Part shown: piece after piece, positions 1,185 to 31,444 of the stretch
How the letters are laid out: the number at the start of each line of letters is the position of its first letter
How positions within the stretch are numbered: the stretch's first letter is position 1
Origin: Scenedesmus sp. ARA3
Lineage: Eukaryota; Chlorophyta; Chlorophyceae; Sphaeropleales; Scenedesmaceae
DNA length: 31,444 nucleotides
NCBI GenBank assembly: GCA_004335835.1
Contig: RWJK01000570.1
Location: forward strand, 4,908 to 36,351
Reading direction: 5' to 3'
Program-made: the position numbers and the translations under genes
Notes under the pieces: model-generated
Databases searched by the model: none
Seen by the model: the letters and a program-made list of their open reading frames with translations, nothing else
Told to the model about the DNA's origin: nothing

Positions 1185-1219
<35 letters not shown>

Positions 1220-4200
1220 CCAGGCTGCCTGCTGACACCACCAGTACTACTAGTAGTTGTGCTGCTGCCACTGCCACTGCCTGAAAGGGATATGCCGGCA
1301 GAGCCGTTTGCTGAGGCGCCGGCACTGCTGCCTGCGTTGCTGCGAATGGTCACTCGTTGCTGCCGCTGCTTCTTCTTCTTCTGCGCAGCACCACCTGCTG
1401 CTGCGCTTGGTGTTGCTCCCTTGCGGAACAGGCTGCCAGCACTGGTACCGCTGCCTTCTGTGGGTAGCAGCGCCACCCCACCCTGCTGCTGCTGCTGCTG
1501 CTCCTCCCTTCTCTGCATGCTGCTGCACAAGCTGCTGCCAGCGCTGCTGCTGCTGCCTGTCCCTCGGCGGCTGCTGTGCCCACATCCTTCGGCTGGCTGC
1601 TGCGTGCTGCTGCTGCTGCTGCTGCTGCCACCTGCAGCAGTACATGTATCTACATAGCTGCCATGCACACGAACCAGCTTCTGAGCCAAGACACTATGCC
1701 TAGGGCTGGCAAGCGCCTTCACACAGCTGCTGCGGCTGCTGTTAGTAACACCCTGCTGCGCCAGTGCCCCTGCTGCTGCCTTATCTACCAGCATGCTACT
1801 GCGAGGGCTGCTGTAAGTCCCATTGGCAGCTGCAACTGCGCCAGCTGCATTCAGACCTGCCTGCCACATCTCAGTGAATGCGCTGCTGCTGTCCACACCA
1901 CTGCCTCCACTGTTACTGCTGCTGCTGGCTCCCCCTGGCAAAGCAGCAGCAGCAGGACGTGGGGACTGCAGGTACCGCAGCAACTTGCCTTGCTCTGTCA
2001 CCACTGCGCCGCGTGAGTTGGTGGCTACTACTCTAGCAGAGAGGGGTGTCAACTGGCCTGGGCCTGATTGACCTGCTGCCGCCCCTGCTGTTGCTGCTGC
2101 TGCTGCTGGCTTGCCTGGTGACGCATGCAGCTGCCGTGCAGTGCTGCTGCCTCCGCTGCTGCTGCTGCCTGGCCCCCGCATCACTTCGCCATCTGTTTTT
2201 GCTGCAACTTCTTCTGCCGCCTTCACTGCTGCTGCTCTGCGAGGCGTATGCACAGTCACAATTGCTGCCGTGATTGGGCCAACATAGTCCTGCGACAGCA
2301 GCGCTGCAGGCGGCGTGGCGCGAGCAGACTGCAAATGCTTCACACACACATCTCTGAAGCCACCTTGCTGCGTCTCCTGGGCAGCACGCACCGCCTGCAG
2401 CAGTGCCGGCGGCGCCGCTGCAGCCGCCGCTGCTGCATCCAGCAGCAGCTGTGCAAAGCTGCCGGCGTCCCCACTCTGCTGCTGCTGCTGCTTCTGCTGT
2501 ATGCGTGGGCTCGCTACGGCTGAGCTGCTGCTGCCAACACCACCAGACAGCGAAAGGAACACGGCGCCACCCCCGCCGCTCCTGCTGCTGCCACTGCCAT
2601 CCCCAGCACCTGCCAGCCTACTGCCTCGGCTGCTGCTGCTGCTGCAGCAGCAGCCAGCAGCACTCACAGCCTGCGGTGCTGCAGCTGCAGCAGCAGCTGT
2701 AGCAGTGCTGCGGCTCTTGGGGCTGCCTGGCTGGCTAACTGCCCCAGACAGAGATGAGATCTGCTGCGCAATGCAGCTGGCAGTCACTACGCGCCATTCA
2801 TCCCTGCAAGGCTGCGGCTGCAGAACATGCCTGGGGCTGCTGCTGCTGCTGTTGATCCTGCCTGGTGAGGTGGGTGACCTGGGTGACCTAGGGGATCCAG
2901 GCGCTGATCTGTTAGTGACACTGTTAGTAACATTGTGGTTGTTACGAGCTGCACTGTGGCCTGTCGCACTGCTGCAGCAGCCTGACAGCAGGCACCCCTT
3001 GCCCGCTGCTGCTGCTATGTCTAGAGAACCCAGCTGCTGCTGGTGCAGTGAGTGCTGGTAGAGATGGTCTGCCACACAATCGCGGCTTGACGCCGCTGCT
3101 GCTGCTGCCACACCTGCTTGCCCTGCTGCTGCTGCTGCTGGGTCTGTGAGCCAATAGCTGCCCCTAGCAGATGCCAGCACTGAACCTGGCTCCACCTGCC
3201 ACACACTGTGCTGCGCTGTGCCAGTCTCTGCTGCTGCAGGAAACTCAAACCCTGCTGCTGCACCCTGCTGCTGCTGCTGCTGCTGTTGTGCCTGGCCCAC
3301 ACCCAACCCAGCACTCCCACCAGTAATGCTAGACAGCTGCAGCCTAGGAACTGCTACTGCTGCTTTTCGTGCTGCAGCAGCCTTGCAGGACCCCCCAGCA
3401 GCCACCTGCAAGCCCTGAACCCCACCCGGTGGCTGCAGCACAAACCCAGCCGCCGCCGCTGCTGCTGTAGTAGCCGCAAGCGACTCTGCTGCTGCTGCAG
3501 CAGTGGCCTGCATGTCCCCGAGCAGCGATTCATGGCCCGTGCAGGAGCTGCGGCGCCGCTGCATGCGTGGCGGCGGCCCAGAAGGACAGCCGGCTGCTGC
3601 TGCTGGTGACACTGCCAGCAGCCGCTGAGTCAGCACTGGCACACCAGCAACCACTGCCACAGCACCTGCAGCTGCTGCTGCTGCGTCGTCTGCCGCGCCG
3701 GTACCGCTGGTCGTGCGGCGCTGCCGTACCACAGCAGCCGCCACTGCTGCAGCAGCAGCAGCCTCACCACCACCATCCTGCAAGCCCTCGCCTGCTCCCA
3801 CCAGCTGCTGCTGGCCATCCGGCAGCAACCCACCAGTGCTATCACTTGCACCTTGCAGGCTGTCAAGATCAGGCCCTGCAGCAGCTGCAGCTACAGCGTC
3901 CTCCACTGTCTCCCTGTTGTGCAGTGTTTCGTTGAAGGCCTTCTGGCTGCGGATGGCCTCCTCTGCCTTGGCTACTGCTTGTGCGTCGTCGCTGAGGTTC
4001 ACGTCGTAGTGCAGCCACTTGCGGCGGCTCTCACCACCCTGCAGGCACAACACAGCATATCACAGCCGTCAGACACACAGCACAAGCCGGCACCATGACT
4101 CTGTGCATTATCCTCCGCCTTGGCTACTGCTTGTGCATCGTCGCTGAGGTTCACGTCGTAGTGCAGCCACTTGCGGCGGCTCTCGCCTCCCTGCAGGCAC

Positions 4201-5472
4201 AACACAAGCGCCGCACACGAGCACATAGGAAGTGTGATTGTCACACAACCCAGCAAGAAGCGGGAGGTTCCCACAGTGGGAGCTTCAAACAATGGCGGCT
4301 GGGAAGAACAAACACAGGCAGCTCCCCTCAGATGCAGCAGGCATCACCGCCAGGCAGGACATACTTGCAGCAATGCTGCAAAGATCATCACGCTTCCCCG
4401 CAATATCTGCTCTAACGTACAATCGCTGAGCAGCGCTGTGCACCGCGCCCTGCTGCAGCCGCACCTGCGTGATCTCCGACAGCATCTGGGTGCGCTTCAG
4501 CTGGCGGATCATCACGCCAAACGGCAGCGCCATGCCTGCAGGCACAGATAAGACCAGAGCAATATACAGCAATCGGTCAGACTGATCATTGTAAAGCAAA
4601 GATCAATCACTATTCATTTTGCCAAACGGCAGCACCACGCCTGCAGGCACAGTTGAAGGCACACCACACACTGAGCATGTGTTCACCCTGTTGTGGCCTA
4701 TTTCATCCAAGGTGGTGCCAGGACCCACATGCAACTATCCTCACACTTGCACACCTGCACCAGAGCTGCTGCCAGGCATTGCATGCCACGTCACTTGCGT
4801 GCGAACCAGCTGCTGTCCTTGCTGCTGCTGCTGCTGCCGCATGCTCACCTGAGGGCAGCACGTACTCCCCTGACAGCAGGTGCTTGCCAGCAGCAAACTC
4901 ATCCATCATGAACGCCTCAAACTCGCCCCAGCCAATGCAGCCGTCATGGTTGGCGTCCTGCAGGACAGGCAGACAAGTGACAAACATGTGAACCACGGCT
5001 GTTTGAACTCAAGACAGTGCTGGCAGCGATTGCAGTGGCACCCTGCAGGCAGGGCATGCTAAATCGTCACGTGCGTGACACCTGAGCAGCAGACAATAAG
5101 CTGCCGCATCCCTGCTGCTATGAGCTGCTTGCAGGAAACAGCTGTCACTGGGAGGGCTGTTCTCCGCCAGAACAGCGCCACCTGCTTCAGCTGCCGCTGC
5201 CGCTGCTGCTATTGCCTCACCAAGTCACCGGCTGGGCATGCCATGCTCTGTGTGCAGCGCGAGCTGCTGCTGCAGCTGCTTTACACAGCCACACAATGCA
5301 CAACCACCATCAGAGCCATTCAGCGCAGCCCCACATAGAGCGGCGGTGCCTCTGATGTTGCTGCTGTTGCTGCTGTCCCAGGCAATAATTGGTGCTGTCT
5401 CACACAATGCAACGAGCTCTGCCTCCTGAAGAAGCGACCTGCTGCTGCTGCTGGCTTTCTAGCACTGGCTGC

Positions 5473-5527
<55 letters not shown>

Positions 5528-6628
5528 TCAAGCAGTGCCCGCTGCCGGCTCTCACCATGAGCTTTATCATCTCAGTGATGTTGGACTCATCACAAGGGAT
5601 GCGCGCCGCCTGCGTGATAGCACACACAATGCATGCATTGGTTCTCTGTTGCTGGATGCTGCCGCACATGCCTTGAAGTGATGGCGCTGTGTTGCGGCGG
5701 CATAGATGCTTGTGCTGCACAACTGTTGCTGCAGTCGTTGCGCTGGCTTAGAAGCTGTGGTTGCGCTGGCTTACAAGCTGTGGTCTCATGCTTGCGCTGG
5801 GACTATGATAACCTCGCTGTTGCTTTGATGGCTGCTTCAGCAGCTGCTACTGCTATCGTGTAGTGTGTGCTGCTGCCGCAATCTCAGCACTGCAAGCAGC
5901 TCAAGGTGCTCCAGCGTGCTGCTGCTGCTGCTGCTGCTGCTTGTGCTGCTTACTATGCAGTGTTGAAACCCGTAACAATGCTGCTGCTGGTGCTTACTGC
6001 CTCACCTGCAGCGCTGCCAGCAGCCCGCGGTGCTCCATCATGCCGCTGCTGCTTATGTGCAAAGATTTAACACCGTCGTTATTGCTGGTGCTGCTGCTGC
6101 TCACTGCCTCACCTGCAGTGCAGCCAGCAGCTCGTGGTGTTCCAGCGTGCCGCTGCCATCATCATCAACCAGGTCAAACCACTCGCGGATGACTTTGACT
6201 ATGACCGGATGCAGCCGCGGAGGCGGCAGCGTCTTGCCGTGCCGCAGGCACCATGCGCGGTGCTGTGCGCGGCGCAGCATGCCCTCAATGTAGGTCTGCA
6301 GGAAACAGCAGGGCAACACGGCACGGTGCTGGCATAATGCCTCATAGCATTATGCTTTGTCCTGCATTACGTCTTGTCTACTGGTTGAAATCATACAAAC
6401 AGGCTGTACTGCTCACAATGTAAGAAGGACAGCGTCTACTGCCTGCACACAGAAGAGATAAACTGCTGGCATGCAGAGCACGAGCCATGCACGTACCTTG
6501 GTTGCCTTGTCCAGGCGCTTCACCCTGGTAACCTTGCCATTGCCTGCAATGCTATTGAATGCCGAGGAGGTGCGAGCAGAGCCGTGCCTGCTCGCTACCT
6601 GCGGCACTGCTGTTTCAGCGGGCTGCAT
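838..6628 (-). CDS. Paired EF-hand calcium-binding protein with long SPR-motif low-complexity tail
   Basis: Six exons join in phase: 6628-6497, 6295-6113, 5609-5556, 4957-4849, 4535-4465 and 4038-838, giving about 1,249 residues. All donors are GT and all acceptors AG. The start is the ATG at 6628, the first in the frame. Two canonical EF-hand loops are visible, DDDGSGTLEHHE (about residues 88-99) and DANHDGCIGWGE (about 124-135). They are separated by a helical linker encoded partly by the 18-codon exon 3, so a Ca2+-responsive pair is likely. Exons 5 and 6 add a basic helix and the segment GGESRRKWLHYDVNLSDDAQ. The rest of exon 6 is Ala/Ser/Gln/Gly-rich and disordered, with at least nine Ser-Pro-Arg motifs up to the C-terminus (SPRGRRG), which suggest proline-directed phosphorylation or microtubule/RNA contact. 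I do not recognise the family beyond EF-hand, and the target is unknown. Exons 2, 5 and 6 have partial tandem copies in adjacent introns. Confidence 0.8.
4039..4190 (-). repeat. Partial copy of EF-hand gene exon 6 (acceptor side)
   Basis: The first roughly 80 bases of exon 6, with its splice acceptor CCTGCAG and the following intron bases, recur 152 bases upstream. The copy's acceptor ends at 4191 and its coding-like part runs from 4190 to about 4110. It keeps the frame for GGESRRKWLHYDVNLSDDAQ with only a few silent changes, then diverges. Reading in from the copy leads to sequence without an obvious donor, so it is more likely a decoy acceptor than a second exon. Confidence 0.85.
4606..4652 (-). 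repeat. Short copy of EF-hand gene exon 5 acceptor edge
   Basis: The start of exon 5 and its acceptor (real acceptor boundary at 4535) are repeated 105 bases upstream, with the copied boundary at 4640. About 35 bases match with three or so changes, covering the splice site and the codons for LPFG. Confidence 0.75.
5468..5526. repeat. CTG microsatellite in EF-hand gene intron 3
   Basis: Eight GCT units and, after a one-unit interruption, about eleven more lie just downstream, in the minus sense, of the exon 3 donor at 5556. On the sense strand the run reads CAG. Confidence 0.9.
5875..6060 (-). repeat. Two copies of EF-hand gene exon 2 donor edge
   Basis: The end of exon 2 (LEHHELLAALQ followed by GTGAGG, boundary at 6113) recurs 107 bases downstream with boundary 6006, reading MMEHRGLLAALQ then GTGAGG. 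A more decayed copy near 5880-5915 reads roughly LEHLELLAVL with no good donor. CTG runs separate the copies. Confidence 0.75.
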
Positions 6629-6701
6629 GCTGGGCACCCCTCAGGCCTGCTGCTGCTGTGCAGCTGCTTTACTGCTCCCACAGCTCCAGCAACCGCTCGC
6701 C

Positions 6702-6722
6702 CTACTATAACATTATAGTTAT
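6702..6722 (-). promoter_or_regulatory. Candidate TATA-rich core promoter of the EF-hand gene
   Basis: On the minus strand this stretch contains TATAAT and TTATAG within 20 bases, 75-95 bases before the ATG at 6628. It is the most AT-rich patch in the upstream region. Position and composition are the only evidence. Confidence 0.3.

Positions 6723-8617: not shown

Positions 8618-8618
<1 letters not shown>

Positions 8619-8660
<42 letters not shown>
8619..8660. repeat. (CTG)14 microsatellite
   Basis: Fourteen uninterrupted CTG units on the plus strand, 3' of the transporter gene's stop codon. In the transporter's sense the run reads CAG. Confidence 0.95.
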
Positions 8661-8661
<1 letters not shown>

Positions 8662-8699
8662 AGGAGCAGCTCAGCCACCACAAAGCTGGAACCACGTCA

Positions 8700-8825
8700 A
8701 AGCCATGCTCACTGCTGCTGCAGCGCGGCCGCCTGCTGCTGCTGCTACTGCTGATTCTGCAGCTCAGATTCCTTTTCTGCCACCAGGAAGATCAGCCCGC
8801 TGACCACATAACAGCAGGGCACAGT
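8700..8825 (-). repeat. Copy of the transporter's C-terminal exon end beyond the stop codon
   Basis: The sequence encoding the last helix of the transporter (CCYVVSGLIFLVAEKE) is repeated past the real stop at 8832. In the copy the reading goes CCYVVSGLIFLVAEKESELQNQQ and then hits a TAG within the glutamine run. It lies in the presumed 3'UTR, and is the downstream counterpart of the other exon-edge copies in this gene. Confidence 0.85.
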
Positions 8826-8831
8826 CCCTGC

Positions 8832-9951
8832 TCACTGTTGCTGCAGTGCGGCCGCTTGCTGCTGCTGCTGCTGCTGATTCTGCAGCTCGATCTCCTTTTC
8901 AGCTACCAGGAAGATCAGCCCGCTGACCACATAGCAGCAGGGCGCCAGCAGCATGGCGTGCTGCAGGCCCACCACCTCTGCCAGCTTGGCAACCGCCACA
9001 GGGCCAAAGCCGCCGATCAAGTTCCTGCAAGCAGACACAGGCAGCAGCAGCAGCAGCAGCAGCAGCCACAAAGTCAGCACCACACCCGCCAGCTTGGCAA
9101 CTGCCACAGGGACGAACCCGCCGATCAAGTTCCTGCAAGCAGCGGAAAAGCAGCAGCAGCAAAGTGTACAGTCTGCAAAGCGCAGTCGCTTTACGAAGGT
9201 TGTTGCAGCGCGTTGGCCGTGCTGCCCAGCTCCTAGACGCGCAATCTGCGAATGAATATTGTGCCTGAAATCAATTCCTTGTAAAGAAACATACCAATTG
9301 CTGCTGTTGCCCCTGCTGCTGCTGCCCCTGCCACTGCTGCTGCATTTCTAGACACTAACGGCCTCGCCTGATGCACAGGTACAGCGCGCTGGCCGTGCTG
9401 CCCAGCTCCTGTGGGGCCACGCTGCGGATCATGATGGCCCCCGGGCGCCCGCCAAGCCTCAGACAGTGCAAAGCCCACAAGCAACATACACGATTGCTAC
9501 CAGCCATGTATACCACAACTAACACCCAAAAAGAACCTGATGTAGAATGTCAGCTGCCTACCACAAAGCACTGCTGCTGCTGCTACTGCTGCTGCTGCCG
9601 TGCTCACCTAATGCACAGGTACAGCGCGCTGGCTGTACTGCCCAGCTCCTGTGGGGCCACACCGCGGATCATGATGGCCCCGGGGGCCCGCCATGCCTCA
9701 GACAGTGCAAAGCCCACAAGCAACATACACGATTGCTACCAGCCATGTAACCACAACAAACACCCAGAAAGAACCTGCTATACCACGCCAGCTGCCTACC
9801 ACAAAGCACTGCTGCTGCTGCTACTGGTTCCATGCTCGCCTGATGCACAGGTAACCGCGCTGGCCGTGCTGCCTAGCTCCTGTGGGGCCACGCTGCGGAT
9901 CATGATGGCCCCTGAGCTCACCTTATGCAAAGAAACATCCCAAACTGCTGC

Positions 9952-9990
<39 letters not shown>

Positions 9991-12900
9991 CCGCCACTGC
10001 TGCTAGATTTCAGTAGCATGCCTCACCTGATGCACAGGTACAGAGCGCTGGCCGTGCTTCCCAGTTCCTGCGGGGCCACGCTGCGGATCATGATGGCCCC
10101 CGGGGCCCGCCATGCCTCCGACAGTGCAAAGCCCACCAGCAGCGCAGTAAACGAGCCCCCAGGGCTGTCTGCCAGCAGCGACTGAGCAACAAAGGGCGCA
10201 GCCAACAGCGACGCGCCTGCGGCAGAGAGGTGAAGGTGCGGCAGCAGCAGCAGCCTGAGATAGTGCAAAGCCCACCAGCAGCGCAGTGAAGGATCCTCCG
10301 GGACTATCTGCCAGCAGCGACTGAGCAACAAAGGGCGCAGCCAGCAGAGACGCGCCTGCGGCAGAAAAGTGAAGGTGTGGCAGCAGCATCAGGCTCAGAC
10401 AGTGCAAAGCCCACCAGCAGCGCAGTGAACCATCCTCCGGGACTATCTGCCAGCAGCGACTGCGCCACAAAGGGCGCAGCAAGCAGCGATGCACCTGCAA
10501 ATGTGCAGTTGATGCAGGCGAGACAAGTAAGAATCAACGGAGAAAGTGGTGAGCCAGACAGAAGCCGGCAAAAGGATTTGGCAGCAACAGGGAGCAGGGT
10601 CAAGGAGCCCCCAGGGCTGCCTGCTAGCAGCGACTGAGCAACAAAGGGCGCAGCCAGCAGCGACGCACCTGCAGGCGGTTGGTAGGAGGCGAGACAGGTC
10701 ATATAAACCAGGGGGTTCGCAGCAAGAGAGAAGAGGGCGAGAAGTGGGTCAACAGAGCCAGCCAGCAGTCGGTTCCTGCAAGTTGGTGTGAAAGATCCTC
10801 CAGGGCTGCCTGCCAGCGGCGACTGCAGCCACAGAGGGTGCTGGCAGCAGCGATGCACCTGCAAGAGGGATGTTGGTTGACATCACAGGATTGAAGGGCC
10901 CGGCCATGACATTCCAGGTACACCCCCAGATCATGCATGAACAGCCTGCTCTTACTCGCAGTAAGCAAGTGGACCAAAATACAGATCTGCATGTAAGACA
11001 AGCAGTAACAACGGCCCAAACACAGTAGACGCCGCACACAACAGACAGCACGCATGATAAGTAACAATAACAGAACCGGATTAAGCATCCTCACCTGCGG
11101 TCAGCCGGTAGCGGCCGCACATCACTGAGCCAGTTCGCAAACAGAGCACGGCCGCTTTCAATTGCTGTACTTATGAGAACAGACACCAGACACGCAACAG
11201 CAGCATATGCCCGAGGCCTGAGCTCTCACCTGCAGTCAGCCAGTAGCGGCCGCCCACCACACTCAGCCAGTCCGCGATCAGCCCACCACACACTCCGCCC
11301 AAGATGCCACCGGCAAAATCGCCGCCAGCATCGGCGTATACTAAGCATAACCCTGAACAAGCCCTACTTGCAGTCAGGCGGCAGCCGCCACCCTACACCC
11401 GCAGCCACAGCAAACAGCACAGCAGGTACGGCAAAGTAAAACAGTAACTCCAGAATCACAAAACCCACCTGCGGTCAGCCAGTAGCGGCCGCCCACCACA
11501 CTCAGCCAGTCCGCGATCAGCCCGCCACCCACGCCACCCAAAATGCCGCCCACCGGCAGGATCACCGCCAGCATCGGCGCATACACTCCACTGTCCAGCC
11601 CAAACACCCGCTCATAAAATGTAGAATGCCAGGCAATGAGGGCATAGCTCCCCACATCATTGAGCGCTGCTGCTACTGTGGTGGCTTGGAAAGCTTTCAT
11701 TCCCAGTAGGTCACTAACTGGGTTATGTGAGAGCTTTGCGACAAGCGCTGTTGAGGCAGCAGCAGCAGTGCTGCTGGCGACGGCTAAGGCTGTTGTGGGA
11801 GGCGCATCACCTGCTGCTGCTGCTGCTGCTGCTGCAGGATCTGCCTCTGCCTCTGCTGATGCTGCTGCTGCTGCTGTGCTGCTGTCTTCCAGCTCTACAA
11901 TGCAAGCAGGACCAGACAGCACTGGCTCTGCTGCTGCTGCTGCTGATTCTGCTGCTGGCGCCTCATTATTGCTGCTGCTGCTGCTGTTGTGCCAGCCGTG
12001 CCCAGTCACCATGTTCAGCAGCTGAGCACTCAGATTTGAAGCACCCTCCCTCCAAGATGACGGATCTGTCACACTAACACCCACTGCCGCCGCCGCCGGC
12101 CCCGCTGAACCCTGAACCCCATCAACAGCTGAACCCTTAAACCCTGGCCCCGGCGCGGTTGAACCCTTAGACCCTGAACCCTCGGCCTCAGCATGCCGCG
12201 GCTCCCGCACAGTCAGCAGCATCAGCAGCGCGATCGCAAACCCTGGAATGCCGATCCACGTGAACAGATCTCGCCAGCCGCCGCCACCGGACCCTGCTGC
12301 TGCCTCGTAGGCAATGACATGGAAGTTGTAGTTATATAACGGCGTTACAGCCGCCATGTCACCCATGGTGTAGATTATGCTCATGCGCTGCAGATCTAGC
12401 GCGTCCAGGGGAACCATGGACAGCGCTACTCCCTCGTCTGCTGCTACGCCTGCTGCTGCATCTGCCATTGTGCCGACTCCTGTGAGTCCTGCTGACAAGC
12501 CAGACTTAGCAGCACCGACCCTACATGAAAAGACAGCAACAAGGAACCACGCGGTTCTGTCAGCCAGAGTAAGCAAAACAACCAGGATCAGCACATGTGA
12601 CATGCGCGGCAGACATGCTGAGATAAACATGCAACGGGAACAAAATTGCTGCCCAGCAGGCTACCTGTGGCCGCCAGGAATGTGCACAGGACAACATAGG
12701 AACGTCCCCACAAAACGTGCCAAACTGTGCCATCTTTTTTTATCAAGTACTACATGCCTGCAAAATTGCGCCGCACCTGTGTGCCGCCAGCACCGACGCA
12801 AAGCTCAGAGCCCGCCCCAAATAGATCGCGCAGTTGTAGCCCGCCAGCGCTGTGCTCTTGTTTGCAGGAAACAGGTCCGGGATCAGGGAAAAGCTCACAG

Positions 12901-13152
12901 GGTTTTGCGCGGCCTGCGCGATTGCAAACCCTGTGCGCACGATCAGCAGCTCCCCAAAGGACCCTGCTCTGCTGGAAATGATGGACAGGCTGCTCCACAG
13001 GGCTAAGCCAACAGCCAGCAGCTTAGGGCGGTCCACCTGGCCGCAGCAGCAGCAGCAGCAGCAGTGGGGCTTTCAGCAGATTGAATCACTAGAAAGTATG
13101 GAGAGGCTGCTCCACAGGGCAAGGCCAACTGCCAGCAGCTTGGGGCGGTCCA

Positions 13153-13191
<39 letters not shown>

Positions 13192-14955: not shown

Positions 14956-14988
<33 letters not shown>

Positions 14989-20198: not shown

Positions 20199-22452
20199 AT
20201 GACTGCCTTTTATGCCTCCAGTCGGCTTGGTTTGATTTTGCTGCCCAGATCTAGCGTCTTCTTGCACGTCGATATGTACACGTCGCCGAGACGGATTTTG
20301 CTGCTGTGGTAACACAGGTGACAGAAGCTCACTCAAAGATGGTTACAACGTGGTTGGTTTCACTCGGTTCAAGCGGTGCGGGATGAGCACCCGGTGTTGC
20401 GGCGACACAATCTTTCCCGAGGCGAACAGCCACCTCTGAATGAGTCTCCGGCCCCTCACTACAAGCTTTCAAAAAAATGGTTTTTTAACACAAGTATGAC
20501 AAGACATGCCCTATAATAGCTGTCACGCCGCGGTTACGCGGTGGTTTAAGGACATTGTCGGACACCGGCTGAAATAGCGCTGCTTCCACGCCCAGGTCGC
20601 ACATGACTTGCAGCTACATTTGAATACCAAAATCACTGTAGCTGTTTCCTTCCTTACTCACGAGATCGTCGTTACCTCCATCGCTCAGTCTGACCTGCTA
20701 GCCTGGCAAGTGCTGCCGCTGCTACCCTGCTTGGTTTGCCGGTCACCACTCTCGGCCATTCTTTGAAAAGGAATTCCCGGCTTCCAAACTAGTTCATTTT
20801 CCATGTCTTCTGACCCAACCCAACACCAGCGCTGCTTATGCCACGTGTTTTGCAGCTGTCGCATCTTGCCAGGCCAGACAAACAACATGCAGCAGCTGCA
20901 GCTGCTGACCCTGTCCCTCCAGAGCCTGGTTGTCACAGCTGATGTTCAGCCAGACACATTGTGAAGCGCAAGTCGGCATAAAATTTACATACTAATATCC
21001 ATTGCACCACTGTCCGCGCCAACTGGAGCTGCTGAGCAAAACGCCAATGCCATCAAAACGTGCACGCAGCGCACAGCCCGCCTGGAAGCAGCAACAGATA
21101 CTTTCATTTCACCGCGCCGCAAACAACACAAGGGAATGATCGGATCAAGGTGGAAGGTGTGCACCCGCAGCAAGGCTGCAGCAGGGCTCTGAGGACTCCA
21201 AGGGGCAGGAGTCCAAAGCAAACCATGCAGCTACTGTACACCGTGGTGAAAGCTGCTGCTGCAGGCCCGCAGCGGGCGACGATGATGGAGTGTGTCTGTG
21301 TGCAGGCATCAATTTCGACACCAACACGTGTAAAACTTTGTGATGACGGAAAGGATGATGCGTGAATCAGCCGGATCCACCATAAGAGATGACTCATCAG
21401 AGCTACTGCTCAGCAGGCTGCCTGTAGGCTGCAATCAGCAGCTCGTGCAGCAGCTCTGCGGCAGGTGTGCCAAACTGCATGCCAGACTTACGTCACAGCA
21501 ATGCAAGCTGCTGCTGCTGCTGCTGCTGCTCATATAGCTGTGTGATGCCAGGTACTGATCTCCTGCCACGTGCATGCAGCGGCGTGCCCCAAACATTGCA
21601 AAGGCACATCCAGCAGCTGCCAAAGCAACTCGAAAACATCGCTGCCTCAAATCATGCAGTAGCAAGCAAGAAAGTGCCACTACACCACGTGCACACGGTT
21701 GGCAACAGCAGCCAATGACGCAGCCGCACGTACCAAGTGCTGCTGCATGCATATCGTGTTGTGCGCAGTCGGCAGGCTTGCAACATGTGAGCCACCACAG
21801 CCGGGATAATGCTGCTGTGCATGCACAGCAGGTGCTATAACGATTCAGAGCCCACTGCCTGCTGCTGCTGCTGCTGCTGCTGCAGCACCTGCTGATCCTG
21901 AGAGCTTATGTGCACGTTGCAAAAGCTGATGCATGCAGCTGTGCCGGTGCATATGCGGCTTCGCTTGTGGTCTGCGGCGCATGCTGCTTGCAGGAAACAC
22001 CAAACACCCTGTCCCGCAAGCCAAGCCTTCCTGCAGGGCCGCGCCACCTACAGCACACTGCTTGCACATGCGCAACGCAACAAGACTTTCTTTGCATCGC
22101 TGCGACGGCAAGCAGCAGGCGTGTGTGCATGTGCGTCGTGCAGCGCCTGCAGCGGCAAGCAGCTCCGTGCTGCTCGCAGTCACACCTGGTCAAACTAAGT
22201 CAAACCAAGAGATGTAGGCAAAATACACGCCGCCTCTGCAGTGCTGGTACGGCAAGTGAACTGCTTCAGCCATAACAAGTCAAGGTAAGGCAATGGCGCG
22301 CCAACCACCACTGCCACATGTGTGGGTATGTGCTAAGGAAGCTGCGAGATGAGTGCATGGAAACTTGGCAAGAAGCTCCTGCAAGCCGCCCTGATGAGAT
22401 TTTTTTTAGCTCTCAGGGCAGCTGGCAGGTACCTCTTCACCAAATGGGAATC

Positions 22453-22488
22453 GGCAGATGCTCTCCCAAAGAAAAAAGAGCATCTGCC
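22453..22488. other. Perfect 12-bp inverted repeat
   Basis: GGCAGATGCTCT and its reverse complement AGAGCATCTGCC flank a 12-base A-rich loop. No gene contains it in my annotation. Confidence 0.85.
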
Positions 22489-23574: not shown

Positions 23575-23609
23575 GCTGCTGTTGCAGCACCTGATGCTGC
23601 AACAGCAGC
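23575..23609. other. Perfect 15-bp inverted repeat with 5-base loop
   Basis: GCTGCTGTTGCAGCA is followed by CCTGA and then its exact reverse complement. The stem would be very stable as RNA or extruded DNA. It lies a few hundred bases beyond the phosphatase stop codon. Confidence 0.9.
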
Positions 23610-23919
23610 ACCTGATGAGCAAACCTCGCAGCAGAGCACGCCTCACTTCCCTGACCATACTGTACAGTGCAGTTGCAGGCAGTATGCAGTAGCCTATGGT
23701 CCCAGGATAAAGTGCATCACATACCGCAACAGCAGCAGAAGTAGGAACACAGAGTGAAGCGTTCAGCAGCCTCGATCCTTCAGCTGCTGCTGCTGCAGCG
23801 GCAGCTGCGCCGAAGAAGCTGCATGCACTGCTGCTGCTGCTGCATGCACGGCTGCTGCTGCTGCTGCTGCATGCACTGCTGCTGCTGCAGCATGCACAGC
23901 TGCTGCTGCTGCTGCTGTG

Positions 23920-23983
23920 TCATGCATCATGCGATACATGCAGCGCAGCAACAGCTTCCTGCATCTCCTCATCCACTTGCCCC

Positions 23984-24015
<32 letters not shown>

Positions 24016-24429
24016 AGCAGCACTGCCAACAGATGGTGCAGGCACGCTGACTTCAGAAGTGTCCATCGGAGCATCAGCAGCACCAGCAGCAGCAGTATCA
24101 GCAGCTGCAACTGCAAAGCCTACATGCCGGCCCGCAGGTCTGCTGTGTGCTGCCGCTGCATGCGTGCAGCAGTCGCAAGGCTGCTGCTGCCGCACGCAAC
24201 TGTGCACAGGCGGCAAGCCCACGGGACGCTGCTGCTGCTGCTGCTGCTGCTGTTGGTGAAGGTGCTGTGGTGGAGAATGTGGCGGCAACAAATCTAGCGC
24301 CCCGCTGCAACCACCTGCTGTTGCTGCTGCTGGAGCAGCACCTGTAAAGCTTGGCTGCCAATGCAGATGATGCTGCTGCTGCTGCTGATCAGATCCAGCA
24401 CTGCTTCTGTGCAGGCAGCTGCGCTTGAA

Positions 24430-24460
<31 letters not shown>

Positions 24461-24947
24461 TGTAGCTCGGATGCCAGCGGTACTGCTGCAGCAGGTGCAC
24501 TGCGGCTGTAGCCATGGCAAGCCACATTTTCGCTGTGCCACGCTTGAGCCTTAAAGCCGGAAGGGACGCTGCAAGGGACTCCCACATCAACGTCACTGCT
24601 GCTGCTGCTCTTGCTGGTGCTGCTGATGCTTAGTGCCCTGCTGCTGCTCGACTGAGTGGCTTGACTGCTGCTGCTGCTGCTGCTGCTGCCCCGGACTCGT
24701 TGACTGCTGCCCAAACCCTGCTGCTGCTGCTGCTGGTGATGGTGCTGCAGTGTTCTACTGCTGCTGCTGCTGCCGCTAGGGTCCTCAAAGCTGCAGCCGA
24801 ACGCCGCAGCAGCTTCTGCAGACGACAAGGCAGTTGCTCTGCTGCTGCTGCTGCTGCCGCTGCTGCCGAACTGAAAGCTGCCATACAATGAGCTGCCGTT
24901 TGCTAGGTGAGGTCCACATGGCAGTACACCTGATACGCCGGCACTCC

Positions 24948-24985
<38 letters not shown>

Positions 24986-26691
24986 GGTTGCTGCGCGACT
25001 TGCGCCACTTGTATGTAGTGCTGCTGCTGCTGCTGTTGCTGCAGCTCCTGCAGCTGCTGGCTGCCCAGCTGCTGCTGCTGCTCCTGCCACACCAGGTGCC
25101 AGGCCCGCCACTTGCTCATGTCATGTGACAAGCCCTGGTAGGTTTCAAGCTGCTTCAAAAACCCTAGGTTTGGGCACACCCTGTGTGGCAGAAGCACGGC
25201 GAAGCAAGGGCAAACGTTTAGCCGGCATGTGGAGCTGATGTGTCAACCCTCAAGGGGCCTCATGCGGATCCATGGTGCAGTTGGTCAAAACATGTTACAT
25301 GACTCATGTGACACACAAAATAACACCCAACATTTGAAAATGTAACAAAAGTAACTGCTCTCACCAGGGCCGCACTGCCTTCAGATGCTCCACTGCTGCT
25401 GTCAGGTCCATGCCGCAGCGAGCCATGAGGTACCCCAGCACCCATTACACGTTACATGACACATTTCAAAATAAAGTAAAACAATGCATGCTGCCTCACC
25501 AAGGCCGCACTGCCTTCAGGTGCTCCACTGCTGCTGTCAGGTCCATGCCGCAGCGAGCCATGAGGTAGCCCAACACCACTGTGGCACTGCGCGACGCGCC
25601 AGCAGCACAGTGCACCAGCACACGGCCTGCAGCAGCAGCAGCAGCAGCAGCAGCAGACATTCAACAGACAGTTGATATAGACAGCCAGCAAGGCAAGCTG
25701 AGAGCACCACAGGGGCGCTGCGGGACACGCCAGCAGCGCAGTGCACCAGCACACGGCCTGCAGCAGCAGCAGCAGCAGCAGCAGCAGACAGTCAACAGAC
25801 AGTTTAGAACAGACGACCAGCAGGGCAAGCTGAGAGCATTACAGTGGCGCTGCGCGACATGCCCGCAGCACAGTGCACCAGCACACGGCCTGCAGCAGAC
25901 ACAAGCAGAGCAGGAGCAGCAGACAGCCAACAGGGGAAGCTGAAACCAAGCAACATGTGATGTTATGGGGTAATCAGTGCTGCATCCAAGACCACGGGTC
26001 AATGCATGCACGAGTGCGGTGCCGACTGTGATGGCACACTGTCTGGTGAATCGCAGCTGCCAAACCTGATGGCACGTCCTGCGCTATTTGCTCGTCAGTT
26101 TCTGCAAACCCTGCTACAGCAGGACAATGACACAGTAACAACACAAATGTAACGCACCTCCTTTGCTGATGGCCCTGTCAATGAACTCGAAGCACGTGGG
26201 GAAGAATGCCACCAGGTCCTCACTGGGCACATCCTGCACCTGCAGCCAGAGCGTTATGTAACATAAAATGATGGTTATGTGACATGTTACATGACATCAG
26301 CAGCAGCATGAATGCATGTGGAAACCAGGCTGCATCACAGGCCATGCCTGGACTGCCTTAGTGTGCCTCCACTGCTTCAGATACCAAGTCAACACTTCTT
26401 GAGCGTTGTTTCTTAGCTATTTGTAGCGTCTCGGCACTGCCGTGCATTGCTGCGATCGAATGCAGCGCAGCAGCAAACGCTGCGGATCTGTTGCTGTGCG
26501 TGCTGGTCAACCTGCCACGCAGATCACCAAGCGCATGTTCTGCTGCTTCCTGCTCTGCCGGATACACTGCTGCTGCTGCTGCTGCTGCTGCTGTGCACAG
26601 GTCTAGGCGCAAAGGCTGCTGCAGTCACCTGGATGTTCATGTAGTTGAACACCAGCGGGTGGTGAGGGAACAAGCCCTGAGCCACCTGCAC

Positions 26692-26738
<47 letters not shown>

Positions 26739-27015
26739 GGAGTTGCACAAATGTCATGGCGTGGATGTTTGTCAGCATTGCAAGCTGTTCTGAACAGCCA
26801 ATGCACGCCATGGCTTACTGCTTAGCTGACATGCAAGCATACCGCAATCAATTGCAGTGTGCAGAGCTGAGTTCAACCAAGTTTGCTAGACATGCACTAC
26901 ACGACACGTGCGTTGCCGCATCCTGCCCTCCCATTCATTCATAATATCCTGCTGCTAGACTGCCATAAGATGCCACAATAGTAGTGTAGGTGTGCCAAAC
27001 CACTGCCTTGCTACC

Positions 27016-27046
<31 letters not shown>

Positions 27047-27479
27047 TTCCCACTGCTACTGCCACTGCTGCTGCTACTGCTGCTGCTGACCTGCAGGATA
27101 TCCGTGATGCCAGCTCTCAGCAGCATGTGTTTATTTGCCTCAGCCATGACAGAGCCGATGAATAGGCCCTCGTGCACCTGCAAGCAGCCACGTGTTCACA
27201 AGGTGTCAGCTGTTCCGGTGTGTGCTGTGCTGCTGCTCCCGCCACACCCCCAACGACCCAATCTAGGGCGCTCTGCTGCCTCGTGCTATTCCACTGGTGC
27301 TGAAACCACAAGTTTCGATGCGTTCTCGCGCGACAGGCACCCCAGGCACACCCGGGTAGGAGAATTACTACAGCACATTAGCCCTGGCGGGCGCAGAACA
27401 CAATTGCTGGCTGTGAGCTCGGAAATTGCTTCACCTTCATGGGCCTATCATCCAGCATTTCCACGACCTCCTCTGCCAT
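23920..27479 (-). CDS. Dual-specificity protein phosphatase with Gln/Ser-rich C-terminal extension
   Basis: Exons 27479-27435, 27177-27091, 26685-26629, 26239-26158, 25626-25500 and 25180-23920 join in phase, giving at least 552 residues. The DSP fold reads in order: VHEGLFIGSVMAEANKHMLL, AGITDILQ, FNYMNIQ, then VQDVPSEDL with the general-acid Asp (about residue 66). The P-loop HCAAGASRSA (Cys about 97, Arg about 103) follows, then GYLMARCGMDLTAAVEHLKA and RPWVCPNLGFLKQLETYQ, which is the usual end of the domain. The enzyme should dephosphorylate Tyr and Ser/Thr, as MAPK-phosphatase-like DSPs do; the substrate is unknown. The last exon adds nearly 400 residues of Gln, Ser and Ala tracts, probably disordered. 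The 5' end is unsure: the frame stays open from 27480 to 27806, including an acidic, protein-like stretch (FCPDDDDLEAFSPEIANDWP), but without an ATG, so an upstream exon is likely. The P-loop exon has tandem edge copies. Confidence 0.88.
25365..25450 (-). repeat. Donor-edge copy of the phosphatase catalytic exon
   Basis: The 3' part of exon 5 (GYLMARCGMDLTAAVEHLKA, real donor boundary 25500) recurs 135 bases downstream with donor boundary 25365. About 70 bases match with very few changes, and both copies end in a GTGAG donor. Confidence 0.92.
25627..25895 (-). repeat. Two acceptor-edge copies of the phosphatase P-loop exon
   Basis: The catalytic loop and its (CTG)n-CAG acceptor are present three times: 25626 (real exon, HCAAGASRSATVV), 25757 (HCAAGVSRSAPVV) and 25889 (HCAAGMSRSATVM), about 132 bases apart. 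The two upstream copies lose homology after the loop and share a different tail (LSACLAG). The outermost then reaches a stop codon. Confidence 0.93.
26693..26737. repeat. (CAG)15 tract before phosphatase exon 3 acceptor
   Basis: Fifteen pure CAG units on the plus strand, CTG in the gene's sense, lie 7 bases beyond the exon 3 boundary at 26685. They occupy the position of the pyrimidine tract of intron 2. Confidence 0.93.
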
Positions 27480-27580
27480 GCCATCACCAGTGTCGAGGTC
27501 TGCCTCGTCTGCCTCTGGCTCTGCTGGCCAATCATTCGCTATCTCTGGCGAAAACGCCTCCAAATCATCGTCATCAGGGC

Positions 27581-27616
27581 AGAAGTCTGTGGGCAGTCGG
27601 TGGCCCACAGACTTCT
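27581..27616. other. Perfect 14-bp inverted repeat at the phosphatase 5' end
   Basis: AGAAGTCTGTGGGC and its reverse complement flank the 8-base loop AGTCGGTG. It lies in the long open but ATG-less frame upstream of the first phosphatase ATG, so it may be in the 5'UTR or an unresolved first exon. Confidence 0.85.
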
Positions 27617-27806
27617 TCGCGTAGAAGCTGCGCTGCCGTGAAGCGGTCAGCTTGCCGTTTTTTAGAGCCAGGTCGACGGTGTTTTTGAAAACAGCCAGTT
27701 TGAGCCGAGTCCTGGCTGTGCAGCTTAGATTGCCATTTCGGAAAGTTGGATTCGGACGTTGCCAAGCATGCAGCCGTACGGGTTCACAAACGTAAGAAAA
27801 ACGACG

Positions 27807-28050
27807 TCAATGGCCTCCGAAATGCTCTGACACTGGCTGCAGACCCCTTGACTTGCTGATCGCATCCCAGCCGTTACACCTCTGTCACTGACATGGCAGC
27901 AGCAAGGACTCCGTTAATCCGCTCGAAATGACTCGCTTCAACACTGATACATCGATTTTGAACTTTTCCGCAAGCAGTCGCCCAGGCCACCAGCCTCATA
28001 CAAGGAGCAGTCACTGCTGCTAGCGTCAGCATAGCTTCTGATCGGCCACC
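27807..28050. promoter_or_regulatory. Shared divergent promoter region, phosphatase and EFG1
   Basis: The minus-strand phosphatase and the plus-strand EFG1 start head to head. At most about 570 bases separate the two candidate ATGs, and about 245 bases lie between the end of the phosphatase's open frame and the EFG1 ATG. No TATA box is obvious. A bidirectional promoter is inferred from position only. Confidence 0.45.
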
Positions 28051-28529
28051 ATGAAGCACAAAAACATGGCCAAGGGCAGGTTGCTTGGGCCGCGGCAGAA
28101 CAAACCTCAGCCATCAGGCGGTAAGCAGCAGCACAAGCAGCAGCAATAGCACACCCTGCCTGCTGCTCCTGCAGCTGCCTTATGTAGCAGCAGCCATGCA
28201 GGCAGCCTCTCACAAACCTGCTGTGTTTGCTGCTTTGCAGGTGTGCAGCAAAGTGGAAAGCTGCGCTCGTTCAAGAACCAAATCAGGGGCATAGAGCGCC
28301 TGCTGCGAAAGGTGGGCACACAAACAGCCAGCACAGCAGCTGCTGATGTGGCCGCAGTGCAGCAGCCACTGCTGCAACATTGCTTGTCCATGGCTTGCAG
28401 GCTACTGGATGTTAACAAAAGTCACTGCTCACCTTTAGCTGCAATTGTATGGCTTGCCTGCATGGTGGCGCTGCTAGCATGCCGCGGCTGCTGGCTGCTC
28501 CTTGTGATGATGACGGTAACGTTGGCTAT

Positions 28530-28627
<98 letters not shown>

Positions 28628-29479
28628 CCAGGAGGACCTGGAGCCGCGCGTGCGAGCAGCCAAGGAGCAGCAGCTGCAGCAGCTCAAGGAGAAGCAGGAG
28701 GCACAGCAGCGCAGCGAGCGGGAGAAGCGGCTCGCCACAAAGTACCACAAGGTGCGGCTGCTTGCAGGAAACGCTTGCAGGAGCGCTTGCAGGAACGCCT
28801 GCACGGACGCTTGCAGGAACGCTTGCAGCTGTGCCTACCCTGGCGTGCAGCTGCATCAGCTGATTATGCAGTTAGGTAGGGTTTGGAAGTGCACCAGGCG
28901 GCTTTTAAGTTATTGTCCTACCTTGGGTGATACTAACATGCTGCTTTCGTATCCGCTGCTGCCGTCTCACATGTTGCAGATCCGCTTCTTTGAGAGAGTC
29001 AAAGTAGAACGGCAGATACAGAAGGTCAACCGGCTGCTGAAGCAGCAGCAGCAGGGACAGGGGCAGCAACAGCAGCAGCATGAGCCAGCACAGCAAGGCA
29101 AGCTACAGAACGACGCGCAGCAGCAGCAGGAAGACGCAGCACTGCAAACCCTAAGCCCTCAGCAGCTGCAGGATCGGCTGCAGCAGCTGCAGCAGGACCT
29201 GCAGTATGTGCTGCACTTCCCGAAGGGCGAGCGTTACGTGTCACTTTTCAAACAGGCTGACAGCTCAGAGGCGCAGCAGCAGCTGGATGCGAATCGGCTG
29301 CGGCTGCGGAAACTCGTGCTGCAGCAGCTAAAAGAGGCTGCTGCTATTGCAGAGGCAGACGAGGGAGCAGCACTGGCAGCACAGGGCGCTGCTGCTCTGG
29401 GTGCTGCTGCTGCTAAGGCGGCTGGGGGTGCTGTGAAAGCACAGAGCAGCAAAGGGGGTGCGGCGCAGCAGCAGGACTC

Positions 29480-29515
<36 letters not shown>

Positions 29516-29573
29516 TGATGATGATGATCTGCTGGATGAGGGAGATGACTTCTTCTTGCAGGAGAGTGAGGAT

Positions 29574-29609
<36 letters not shown>

Positions 29610-30691
29610 GTTAGCAAGGGAGCAGCCAAGCCCAGCAAGCAGCAGCAAGTGCAGCAAGCAGGCAAAGGATCTGCGGCAGCCAGCAAGCAGCAGCAGCAGC
29701 AACAGGGCAAGCCTGTGCCAGGTGCTGCTGTTGGCAAGGCTGCTGCTGCTGCAGGCACCACCAAGAAGCAGCAGCAGCAGCAGCTTGCAGGAGCAAAGCA
29801 GGCAGCAGCAGCGCACATGGATGTTGACGACATCAGCAGCAGCGATGAAGGCTATGACCTGGCAAGCTCTGACGCTGCAGATGATGGCGAAGCAGCAGCA
29901 GTAGCAGCAGCAGCCGGACGGCAGTCGCAGCAGAAGGAGCCGGAGTCTGAGTCAGCACCTGAAGATGACATTGACAGCGATAAAAATGACAATGACAATG
30001 ACGAAAGTGACGATGACGAGGAGGAGGACGAGGAGGGCATCGAAGACATCAGCAAGTGGCTGGAGCAGCAGCGCAAGAAAGCCACTCCGCTGCTGGTTGG
30101 CAGTGCTGCAGGTGACAGCGGCAAGCAAGCAGGCAAGCGGCAGCAGCAGCAGCAGCAGCAAGGGGCCGGCGCCAGCGGGCAGGTGGCCAAGCATCAGCGG
30201 CAGCAGCAGCAGCAGCAAGAGTTTGGTGGAGATTATTTCTTGGCAGGAGCAGGCAGTGCTGAGGAGCAGGCAGATGAGGAGCTGTTTGGTGGTGCATTCC
30301 AGCGGCAGCAGCAGCAGCAGCAGAGGCAGGGTCAGCAGCACGGCAAGCAGCAGCGGCAGCAGCAGGCGCATAGGTTTGGTGAGCAGCAGCAGCAGTGGAA
30401 AGGCAAGTTGGCGGGCGGCGGCAGCGGCGCTGATGCTGCAGCTGGTAGCGGCAAGCAGTTTGGGAAGCTGCCGCGGCTGCAGCAGTTTGACCATGATGCT
30501 TGGCAGCAGCAGTCTGGCCAGCAGCCTCGGCAGCAGCAGTTTGGCGGCAAGTCTTGGCAGCAGCAGTCAGATGACAAACCTCGGCAGCAGCAGCAGTTTG
30601 GCGAGAAGCCTCGGCAGCAGCAGTTTGGCGACAAACCTCGGCAGCAGCAGTTTGGCGACAAACCTCGGCAGCAGCAGTTTGGCCAGAAATC

Positions 30692-30724
<33 letters not shown>

Positions 30725-30839
30725 GCCGCCATTCAAGCAGCAGGGCAAGCCCAAGCAGCAGCAGGGGCCTCCAGGGGAGCCCAAGCAGCCGCTTCGGCCC
30801 CGAGCTGAGGGCGGCAGGAAGCGCCGGCCTAAGAAGTGA
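28051..30839 (+). CDS. EFG1: rRNA-processing protein EFG1
   Basis: Exons 28051-28120, 28241-28311, 28632-28751 and 28980-30839 join in phase into about 706 residues. The ATG at 28051 sits in a GCCACCATG context and the product begins MKHKNMAKGRLLGPRQ. The Efg1 family core is clear: KLRSFKNQIRGIERLLRK, EDLEPRVRAAKEQQ, REKRLATKYHKIRFFERVKV, and DLQYVLHFPKGERYVSLFKQ. In yeast the protein acts in the nucleolus in early 18S/40S maturation, and the same role is expected here. Yeast Efg1 is only about 230 residues. Here some 450 extra residues follow: Ala and Gln tracts, acidic blocks (DDDDDLLDEGDDFF; ESDDDEEEDEEGIEDI), a 9-residue KPRQQQFGD-type repeat and a basic end (GGRKRRPKK) that may serve nucleolar targeting. 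Starting instead at 28449 would translate intron 2 as polyCys and is wrong. Confidence 0.92.
28531..28626 (+). repeat. Pure (GCT)32 tract abutting EFG1 exon 3
   Basis: Thirty-two uninterrupted GCT units end five bases before exon 3 (tract, then TCCAG, then GAGGACCTG). It is the longest perfect microsatellite in the window and takes the place of the pyrimidine tract of intron 2. Confidence 0.97.
28761..28828 (+). repeat. 12-bp CTTGCAGGAACG array in EFG1 intron 3
   Basis: Five to six near-identical 12-13-base units begin ten bases after the exon 3 donor (GTGCGG). Each contains TTGCAG followed by G, the same form as real 3' splice sites in this window. Confidence 0.92.
28931..28937 (+). promoter_or_regulatory. 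Branch-point-like TACTAAC in EFG1 intron 3
   Basis: A perfect TACTAAC lies 42 bases before the exon 4 acceptor (ATGTTGCAG, boundary 28980). It matches the strongest known branch-point consensus. Confidence 0.6.
30532..30690 (+). repeat. EFG1: 27-bp tandem repeat in EFG1 coding sequence
   Basis: About six units of roughly 27 bases encode variants of FGDKPRQQQ (FGGKSWQQQ, SDDKPRQQQ, FGEKPRQQQ, FGDKPRQQQ twice, FGQKSQQQ). The central units are almost identical at the base level, a sign of recent expansion. Confidence 0.9.
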
Positions 30840-30967
30840 TGTGCTGCTGCTGGGCTGCTGCAACTGCTGGGTTTTAGCACAGGCTGGGCGCAGCACGTGC
30901 CCTCCCTTCATAAAAATGGGCTGCTATGACGTCAGTTTGCGTCTCAGGATCAGCCTCTCCAGGGTTT

Positions 30968-30972
30968 TGTAA
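30968..30972 (+). terminator. TGTAA poly(A)-type signal of EFG1
   Basis: The first TGTAA after the EFG1 stop lies about 130 bases downstream. TGTAA is the usual poly(A) signal in chlorophyte algae. Others follow at 31283-31287 and 31438-31442, so the true 3' end is uncertain because the region is duplicated. Confidence 0.5.
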
Positions 30973-31016
30973 CAGGTTATGTAGGGTTCATGCTTATGCT
31001 GAGGTTTGGTTGAGGT

Positions 31017-31260
31017 TTCAAGCAGCAGGGCCCTGCAGGGGAGCCCAAGCAGCCGCTGCGGCCCCGCGCTGAGGGCGGCAGGAAGCGGCGGCCGAAGAAG
31101 TGATGTGCTGCTGCTGGGGCTGCTGCAACTGCTGGATCTTGACTTACCAGCATATGCTGGGCGCGGCACATGCACTGCATGTTGAAGTGGGCTGCTACGG
31201 CGTCAGTTTGCGTCTCAGGGCTGGAGTTTTCACTGAAAGCTGTTGGCAACAGGCCATGCA
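31017..31260 (+). repeat. Duplicated EFG1 3' end: last codons, stop and 3'UTR
   Basis: The segment from about 30735 to 31000 recurs at about 31017-31280. The copy includes the codons for GEPKQPLRPRAEGGRKRRPK, the TGA stop, the CTGCTGCTGGG 3'UTR start, and later blocks such as GTCAGTTTGCGTCTCAGG and CATGCTTATGCTGAGG. A roughly 20-base internal part of the coding end is missing in the copy. It lies beyond the real stop and so is not translated as part of the main protein. Confidence 0.9.
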
Positions 31261-31444
31261 GGGTTCCATGCTTATGCTGAGGTGTAAACGTAAGACTTCT
31301 TGTGTCAACGCGTAGTAGGATGGGGATGAGTTCTTCCGATAGAGCTCTCAGGCCCAGGCCTGCCCTTGTCCTTCTCTACTGTACGCACGGAAGAGCATAG
31401 GCTCAAGCAGGCTTGCCTGCCTCCGACGCGTAGGACTTGTAACT

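Follow-up and report, generated by a model that had tools for sequence, protein, structure and literature searches.

The DNA analysed here (the window) is a 31,444-nt stretch of contig RWJK01000570.1, positions 4,908 to 36,351, of the green alga Scenedesmus sp. ARA3 (assembly GCA_004335835.1; 87.3 Mb, 1567 contigs). Five genes were modelled by hand from the sequence, with 19 GT-AG introns and 38 exon edges (Table 1). The introns of these genes hold partial copies of the edges of the exons that adjoin them, here termed echoes. The protein of gene 2 is 99% identical, with 94% of the query covered, to the Tetradesmus obliquus protein OEZ85_000532 (P0004), whose exon joins are exactly those of our model, the annotated protein using the whole exons and including no echo; on this identity the host is regarded as T. 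obliquus or a very close alga. For gene 4, the corresponding T. obliquus protein was not found in the search.

Twenty-five echoes were identified at 12 of the 38 edges and in nine of the 19 introns, 14 on the acceptor and 11 on the donor side; this count includes copies in which the intron side has been eroded or consists of simple repeat, and one position (the donor echo ending at 11368) was read by eye. The exon-edge copies are a real feature of the window. An earlier inspection of the same DNA (the sequence-only reading) had counted about 14 acceptor-side and about nine donor-side fragments, plus two duplicated gene ends, in all five genes. The acceptor count and the two gene ends were recovered, the donor count was slightly too low, and the spread over the genes holds for genes 1–4 but not for gene 5, where only the 3′ end is copied and none of the six edges is echoed.

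Table 1. Genes, exon-edge echoes and copied gene ends in the window (coordinates of the window, in nt)
Feature	Position	Strand	Exons or echo edge	Evidence or remarks
Gene 1, EF-hand protein	838..6630	(-)	6 exons: 6630-6497, 6295-6113, 5609-5556, 4957-4849, 4535-4465, 4038-838	Splice model, Pfam EF-hand; first exon start uncertain
Donor echo, gene 1 exon 2 edge 6113	5979..6049	(-)	6006	GT kept
Second donor echo, gene 1 exon 2 edge 6113	5885..5929	(-)		Donor lost
Acceptor echo, gene 1 exon 5 edge 4535	4621..4652	(-)	4640	AG kept
Acceptor echo, gene 1 exon 6 edge 4038	4111..4206	(-)	4190	AG kept; only synonymous differences
Gene 2, major facilitator transporter	8832..15894	(-)	5 exons: 15894-13858, 13036-12777, 12520-11469, 10216-10027, 9024-8832	Splice model, Pfam
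Donor echo, gene 2 exon 1 edge 13858	13749..13808	(-)	13752	GT kept; stop codon in exon part
Array of five acceptor echoes, gene 2 exon 2 edge 13036	12972..13673	(-)	13153, 13280, 13407, 13522, 13636	Units 114-127 b; all AG
Weak donor echo, gene 2 exon 3 edge 11469	11366..11407	(-)	11368	76% over 42 b; GT read by eye
Donor echo, gene 2 exon 3 edge 11469	11227..11341	(-)	11230	GT kept
Donor echo, gene 2 exon 3 edge 11469	11090..11144	(-)	11095	GT kept
Four acceptor echoes, gene 2 exon 4 edge 10216	10253..10862	(-)	10355, 10494, 10668, 10858	All AG
Donor echo, gene 2 exon 4 edge 10027	9831..9912	(-)	9840	GC instead of GT
Donor echo, gene 2 exon 4 edge 10027	9603..9722	(-)	9608	GT kept
Donor echo, gene 2 exon 4 edge 10027	9363..9483	(-)	9368	GC; 37 codons: 7 synonymous, 0 other differences, one inserted base
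Acceptor echo, gene 2 exon 5 edge 9024	9078..9160	(-)	9132	AG kept
Gene 2 end copy	8706..8828	(-)		123-b unit including stop codon
Gene 3, short secreted-like protein	18866..20199	(-)	3 exons: 20199-20117, 19709-19573, 19105-18866	Splice model; no Pfam match
Donor echo, gene 3 exon 2 edge 19573	19370..19458	(-)	19382	GT kept
Gene 4, dual-specificity phosphatase	23920..27860	(-)	6 exons: 27860-27435, 27177-27091, 26685-26629, 26239-26158, 25626-25500, 25180-23920	Splice model, Pfam DSPc; first exon start uncertain
Acceptor echo, gene 4 exon 5 edge 25626	25705..25757	(-)	25757	AG kept
Acceptor echo, gene 4 exon 5 edge 25626	25841..25889	(-)	25889	AG kept
Donor echo, gene 4 exon 5 edge 25500	25355..25445	(-)	25365	GT kept
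Gene 5, Efg1-type rRNA-processing protein	28051..30839	(+)	4 exons; no exon-edge echo	Pfam, splice model
Gene 5 end copy	31021..31283	(+)		Source 30757-31005; 79% identical

After masking of simple repeats, the window compared with itself gave 45 direct and two inverted local pairs (up to 2 kb apart). When only copies spanning an edge were admitted, 17 copies remained at 10 of the 38 edges and all 17 lay on the side predicted by the sequence-only reading, i.e., 11 upstream of an acceptor with its 3′ splice site and six downstream of a donor with its 5′ splice site, none of the three inverted hits spanning an edge. Echo offsets of about 100–240 bases (b) are in accordance with the 105–240 b previously noted. 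Each listed echo carries a single edge, with no whole-exon copy having both splice sites, and the spanning copies of the window and of the kinesin genes described below are 75–96% identical to the exon. Inverted placement, or equal numbers of fragments in intergenic DNA, had been named as outcomes that would speak against the observation; inverted pairs were few, and none of 41 pairs (offset 20–700 b) was intergenic on both sides in the 10.5 kb of intergenic DNA of the window, in a search that units under ~50 b escape. Short intergenic tandem repeats, with 29-b and 22-b units, are present at the window start (1–82 and 174–217).

The picture fits the tandem duplication originally suggested, with one breakpoint in the exon, one in the intron and one whole exon preserved. 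Since direct duplication across a single edge places, by geometry alone, the incomplete copy before an acceptor or after a donor, the side and the splice-site content of the copies are explained by this geometry plus survival; the side rule is therefore no evidence of function, and it was rejected as a sign of it. Older copies had also been said to lie farther out. Indeed, the farthest echo was somewhat less exon-like than the nearest in five of seven multi-copy arrays, but a strict age gradient was rejected because two arrays run the opposite way: the echo most like the exon is the farthest one in gene 2 intron 1 (95% versus 77–91%), and the most diverged echo is the nearest one in an MCM gene elsewhere in the genome.

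The AG or GT dinucleotide is kept in 22 of the 25 echoes, with AG in all 14 acceptors and, among the 11 donors, GT in eight, GC in two and loss in one (two donor states being read by eye). Acceptor scores averaged 10.9 in the echoes (n = 14) and 11.6 in their exons (n = 6). Constraint on echo splice sites was rejected, as the 22 retained dinucleotides are no excess over neutral expectation. In gene 2 intron 3, an inner donor-acceptor pair maintains the old spacing (234 b) and the annotated product joins the outermost pair; recognition of the whole exon, and not of the shortest intron, is therefore the likeliest rule by which the spliceosome would choose. Introns generated by AGGT tandem duplication, in which a duplicated exonic segment provides the two splice sites of a new intron in use, are a different structure, since here the copies run across edges that already existed and the old intron is the one used in the annotated protein; so are duplicated alternative exons, every listed echo having one edge only. 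At the position where gene 2 exon 3 ends, P0006, a transcript-derived protein from another alga, finishes with YWLTAG-EALYLTAG, which looks like the read-through of a second donor copy lying 24 b downstream.

Recurrence of the echoes was evaluated in conserved gene families and in a set of twenty 10-kb stretches of other contigs (hereafter the random sample, although these are contig starts and hence not strictly random). Pairs up to 600 b apart in the random sample were 194 direct versus 25 inverted; duplicates covered 0–37% of the single stretches, and the 19% of the window was reached by five of the 20, so that the number of copies, formerly judged exceptional, is not so for this genome. 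Echoed edges are commoner in the window (12 of 38) than in conserved kinesin genes (three of 70 predicted edges); in the latter, introns were predicted only between neighbouring matches up to 1500 b apart (35 introns; 83 of the 133 listed rows), and the five echo copies found were all on the expected side, with one inverted hit also spanning an edge. Profile-search rows gave partial copies for chaperonin (2/59), MCM (3/34), tRNA-synthetase (4/37), SNF2 (2/70) and HSP70 (3/68), that is 14 in 268 exon matches for the five families pooled, of which 11 acceptor-side, two donor-side and one neither, 13 having the expected side and a shared end; the three HSP70 copies come from reading of the match list, and the HSP70 and kinesin lists were outside the scripted count. 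The MCM gene on contig C1340 carries four acceptor echoes with units of ~102–125 b; a single N, perhaps an unresolved or heterozygous base, falls within one near-identical echo (C1340:168701-169900). Given the five stretches at least as dense and the copies in conserved families, the window is rich but of a common kind.

The codon-usage gene finder flagged 47–77% of the random sequence at a low threshold. At three stricter thresholds, duplicate clusters in the random sample touched coding-like sequence in 59 of 78 cases versus 47.3 expected (P 0.002), 50/78 versus 35.5 (P 0.0004) and 30/78 versus 24.7 (P 0.11). The association with exons is evident for the window but mild for the random sample, whose exons were only guessed. 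Among the matches listed, those of part of gene 2 elsewhere are short and fall at its repeat-rich positions, which does not point to a dispersed introner-like element, and neither a second haplotype nor a paralogue was found for gene 2 as the source of the echoes.

The nine introns with echoes have a raw median length of 503 b, which becomes 235 b (range 112–276) after subtraction of the farthest echo shift; the median is ~289 b in the ten introns without detected echo and 233 b in the 35 predicted kinesin introns. Gene 2 intron 3 is 1252 b long here, and lengths of ~225, 228 and 237 b are implied for it by the proteins of three relatives (P0025, P0020 and P0014, respectively), admitting that the extra stretches in these proteins are read-through introns. 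Three of the 12 fetched relative proteins were so measured, and a fourth, P0074, gave ~165 b by eye; a small echo of this exon edge seems to be present in the read-through of P0025. Based on the echo-subtracted median and on the short orthologous intron, the introns likely grew by local duplication, some of them several-fold, with annotation using one whole exon. Growth by echoes would fit the published mean intron length of T. obliquus, 462 b versus 230–302 b in four other green algae (PMC5966456). For the gene 4 intron at 25500/25180, the relative P0090 reads RPWVCPNAG plus 60 extra codons before GFLKQL, and the T. obliquus intron follows RPW; the intron position thus seems shifted by ~14 b in P0090, beside an echoed exon, a possible case of intron sliding.

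Among duplication events of the random sample, shifts of 100–139 b accounted for 42 of 126 and shifts of 40–79 b for seven, offsets of 100–140 b being the preferred ones and tandem repeats with 10–39 b units forming a separate, common class. Duplication had been supposed to be helped by CTG repeats. Copy ends within 10 b of a CTG/CAG run were 10.1% of 716 in the random sample versus 12.1% expected, and an excess was seen in the window alone (30.6% versus 21.7%), where CTG is dense; lacking enrichment in the random sample, CTG runs are not supported as a driver. A pure run of 32 GCT/CTG units is located in gene 5 intron 2 (28531–28626), ending ~5 b from the 3′ splice site.

Unexpectedly, echoes and exons differ mainly at third codon positions. 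When one echo was taken for each of the 12 edges, the 88 differences were distributed over codon positions 1/2/3 as 15/11/62. An echo freed at birth beside a constrained exon should show at most about half of its differences at third positions, a proportion here exceeded with P = 8e-5, and the excess survives leaving out any one edge (P at most 9e-4). All 27 echoes together, i.e., 23 of the 25 of the window plus four of the MCM gene (echoes with less than 24 b of exon being omitted), gave 33/22/145. In the intron parts, 186 of 1264 compared sites are different. Changes confined to a single echo were 7/4/23, thus 23 of 34 at third positions, although in the oldest echo of an array such changes may partly lie on the exon's side. 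In the kinesin echoes, 7/11 differences are at third positions. A frame-free test of the random sample detected periodicity of the mismatches (p<0.05) in 20 of 140 pairs, with seven expected. The third-position excess suggests sequence exchange between echo and exon, which a cruder test in the random sample, reported below, did not confirm. Selection on the echoes via rare transfer to the exon was rejected by a rough estimate, as the rates misfit a synonymous divergence near 20%.

Structures of the same kind are the "mirage" minisatellites of amphioxus, described in Adh3, the globins BflGb6 and BflGb9, TnC and PGBD5 (PMC3087553, PMC3902484). Like the echoes, mirages are direct tandem copies spanning an exon-intron border, affect both acceptor and donor borders, and keep AG or GT in many but not all copies. 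Their units measure 150–160 b in the globins and 10–72 b in Adh3, the echo offsets being in the reported range, while their identity (81–100% in BflGb6) is partly above that of the echoes. Reverse transcription PCR suggested that splicing is undisturbed by mirages (PMC3087553), a point with which, here, only the annotated protein P0004 agrees. Mirages are also unstable in copy number between haplotypes or cells, a property to which the length of gene 2 intron 3, 1252 b versus ~225–237 b in the three relatives, compares only indirectly. Unlike mirages, the echoes are hosted by a green alga, where they affect more than one gene of a single window as well as conserved families across the genome, and they would explain intron length; the third-position excess is not described for amphioxus in the available text of those papers. 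In a potato RdRp gene (PMC4974935), as in the echoes, the 3′ end of an intron and the 5′ part of an exon were duplicated, but there the copy lying upstream was turned into an exon in use, with gain of an intron, whereas the echoes are skipped by annotation and show no intron gain. We found no report of such arrays in a green alga in the available text of the open-licence PMC literature, where their occurrence thus appears unreported, and the main text of a 2025 comparison of these algae (PMC12571836) contains neither the word "intron" nor "tandem".

On balance, we hold it fairly probable that the echoes form mirage-like arrays, built by repeated border-spanning duplication, skipped by predicted splicing and involved in ongoing exchange with the exon. 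Segments of ~100–140 b spanning one exon-intron border would be duplicated repeatedly in direct orientation. A duplication inside the exon would break the protein and be lost, and one over a single exon edge would leave one whole exon and only lengthen the intron, thus surviving; unequal exchange within the array may then provide extra copies. Exon edge and echoes would keep swapping sequence, so that an echo would often have been part of the working exon after parting from the present one, which would account for the third-position excess while some echoes already carry frameshifts. The echoes are predicted to be removed with the intron, the spliceosome using the outermost donor and acceptor and not the inner pair ~235 b apart. 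As for the history of the echoes, we favour unequal recombination between echoes and exon edges, or deep alleles brought together. In one array 11 of 21 site pairs, and in another 15 of 36, conflict with a single tree; these mosaic patterns hint at exchange without reaching significance. The gene 2 intron 1 and MCM arrays would fit co-evolving inner copies with the border copies left out, a feature of mirages.

Several observations weigh against this account. Clustering of site patterns, the expected sign of exchange, was not significant in either of two arrays (P 0.29 and 0.07). The third-position excess rests on 12 edges, six of them in gene 2, and when reading frames in the random sample were guessed by codon usage, the differences of 23 pairs were 106/110/163, so that third positions (163 of 379, 43%) show no excess over one half. 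Moreover, only four of 39 simple pairs of the random sample were flush tandem copies, and the flanks of simple pairs retained weak leftover similarity (z 2.5 and 1.5); fast erosion of the intron side, or filler DNA, must therefore be added to the model. Small tandem duplications are known to arise from the repair of staggered breaks (PMC8355091), which is a general route to local direct duplications but predicts flush copies.

The simplest competitor is plain neutral tandem duplication, in which the echo is freed at birth and only decays, with no exchange. Retention of the splice dinucleotides is about that of neutral decay at 3–6% per copy, frameshifts and a stop are present in some echoes, and the codon test of the random sample is on its side as well; nevertheless, we consider it unlikely, since neither the predominance of third positions among the differences nor their share among single-echo changes, for which one third is expected, is accounted for. 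The third-position excess would equally follow if the echoes were translated as alternative or new exons and selected for their protein sequence, and boundary-spanning duplication did generate a new exon-intron pair in the potato gene. However, each echo has one splice site and not two, frameshifts or a stop in several of them make steady translation unlikely, and none is included in the annotated P0004, so that this explanation has a low probability.

About as improbable is an assembly artefact, in which false tandem copies would result from the unrolling of alleles or short unitigs. The echoes are allele-like in their synonymous differences, their unit size is near the short-read scale and misassembly affected part of the mirages in an amphioxus draft (PMC3087553). 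On the contrary, divergence between copies reaches ~25% and includes indels, arrays comprise as many as six copies, no second copy of gene 2 is present among the assembly matches listed, the read-through of the relative P0025 seems to include a small echo of the corresponding exon edge, and the amphioxus cases survived re-sequencing (PMC3902484). Regulation of splicing by echoes selected as decoy sites, raised by the sequence-only reading, found no support and is in our opinion very improbable: echo sites are indeed about as strong as the real ones, but splice sites are retained about as in neutral copies, the orthologous intron 3 is too short for such arrays in the three relatives, and array copy number varies without pattern. 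We also considered an extended form of the exchange account, in which exon edge and echoes would constitute a tiny co-evolving gene family, with echoes swapped in and out and cleaned by selection while serving. The intron would then act as a reserve of spare synonymous edges; such reserves would lengthen introns and could shift their positions and supply new exons, genome-wide. We regard this extension as rather doubtful.

If exon-exchanging mirage-like arrays are genome-wide, they would offer a test of how introns grow, the growth of nine introns being readable copy by copy, and of how the spliceosome chooses among several equally good sites, with the inner old spacing set against the annotated outer pair. 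They would also test whether sequence outside an exon can be kept clean by exchange with it. Gene predictors and short-read assemblies may err in such introns. A coding counterpart of local duplication is found in the coding part of gene 5, where positions 30474–30704 hold 27-b and 84-b tandem repeats (RQQQFGDKP-like).

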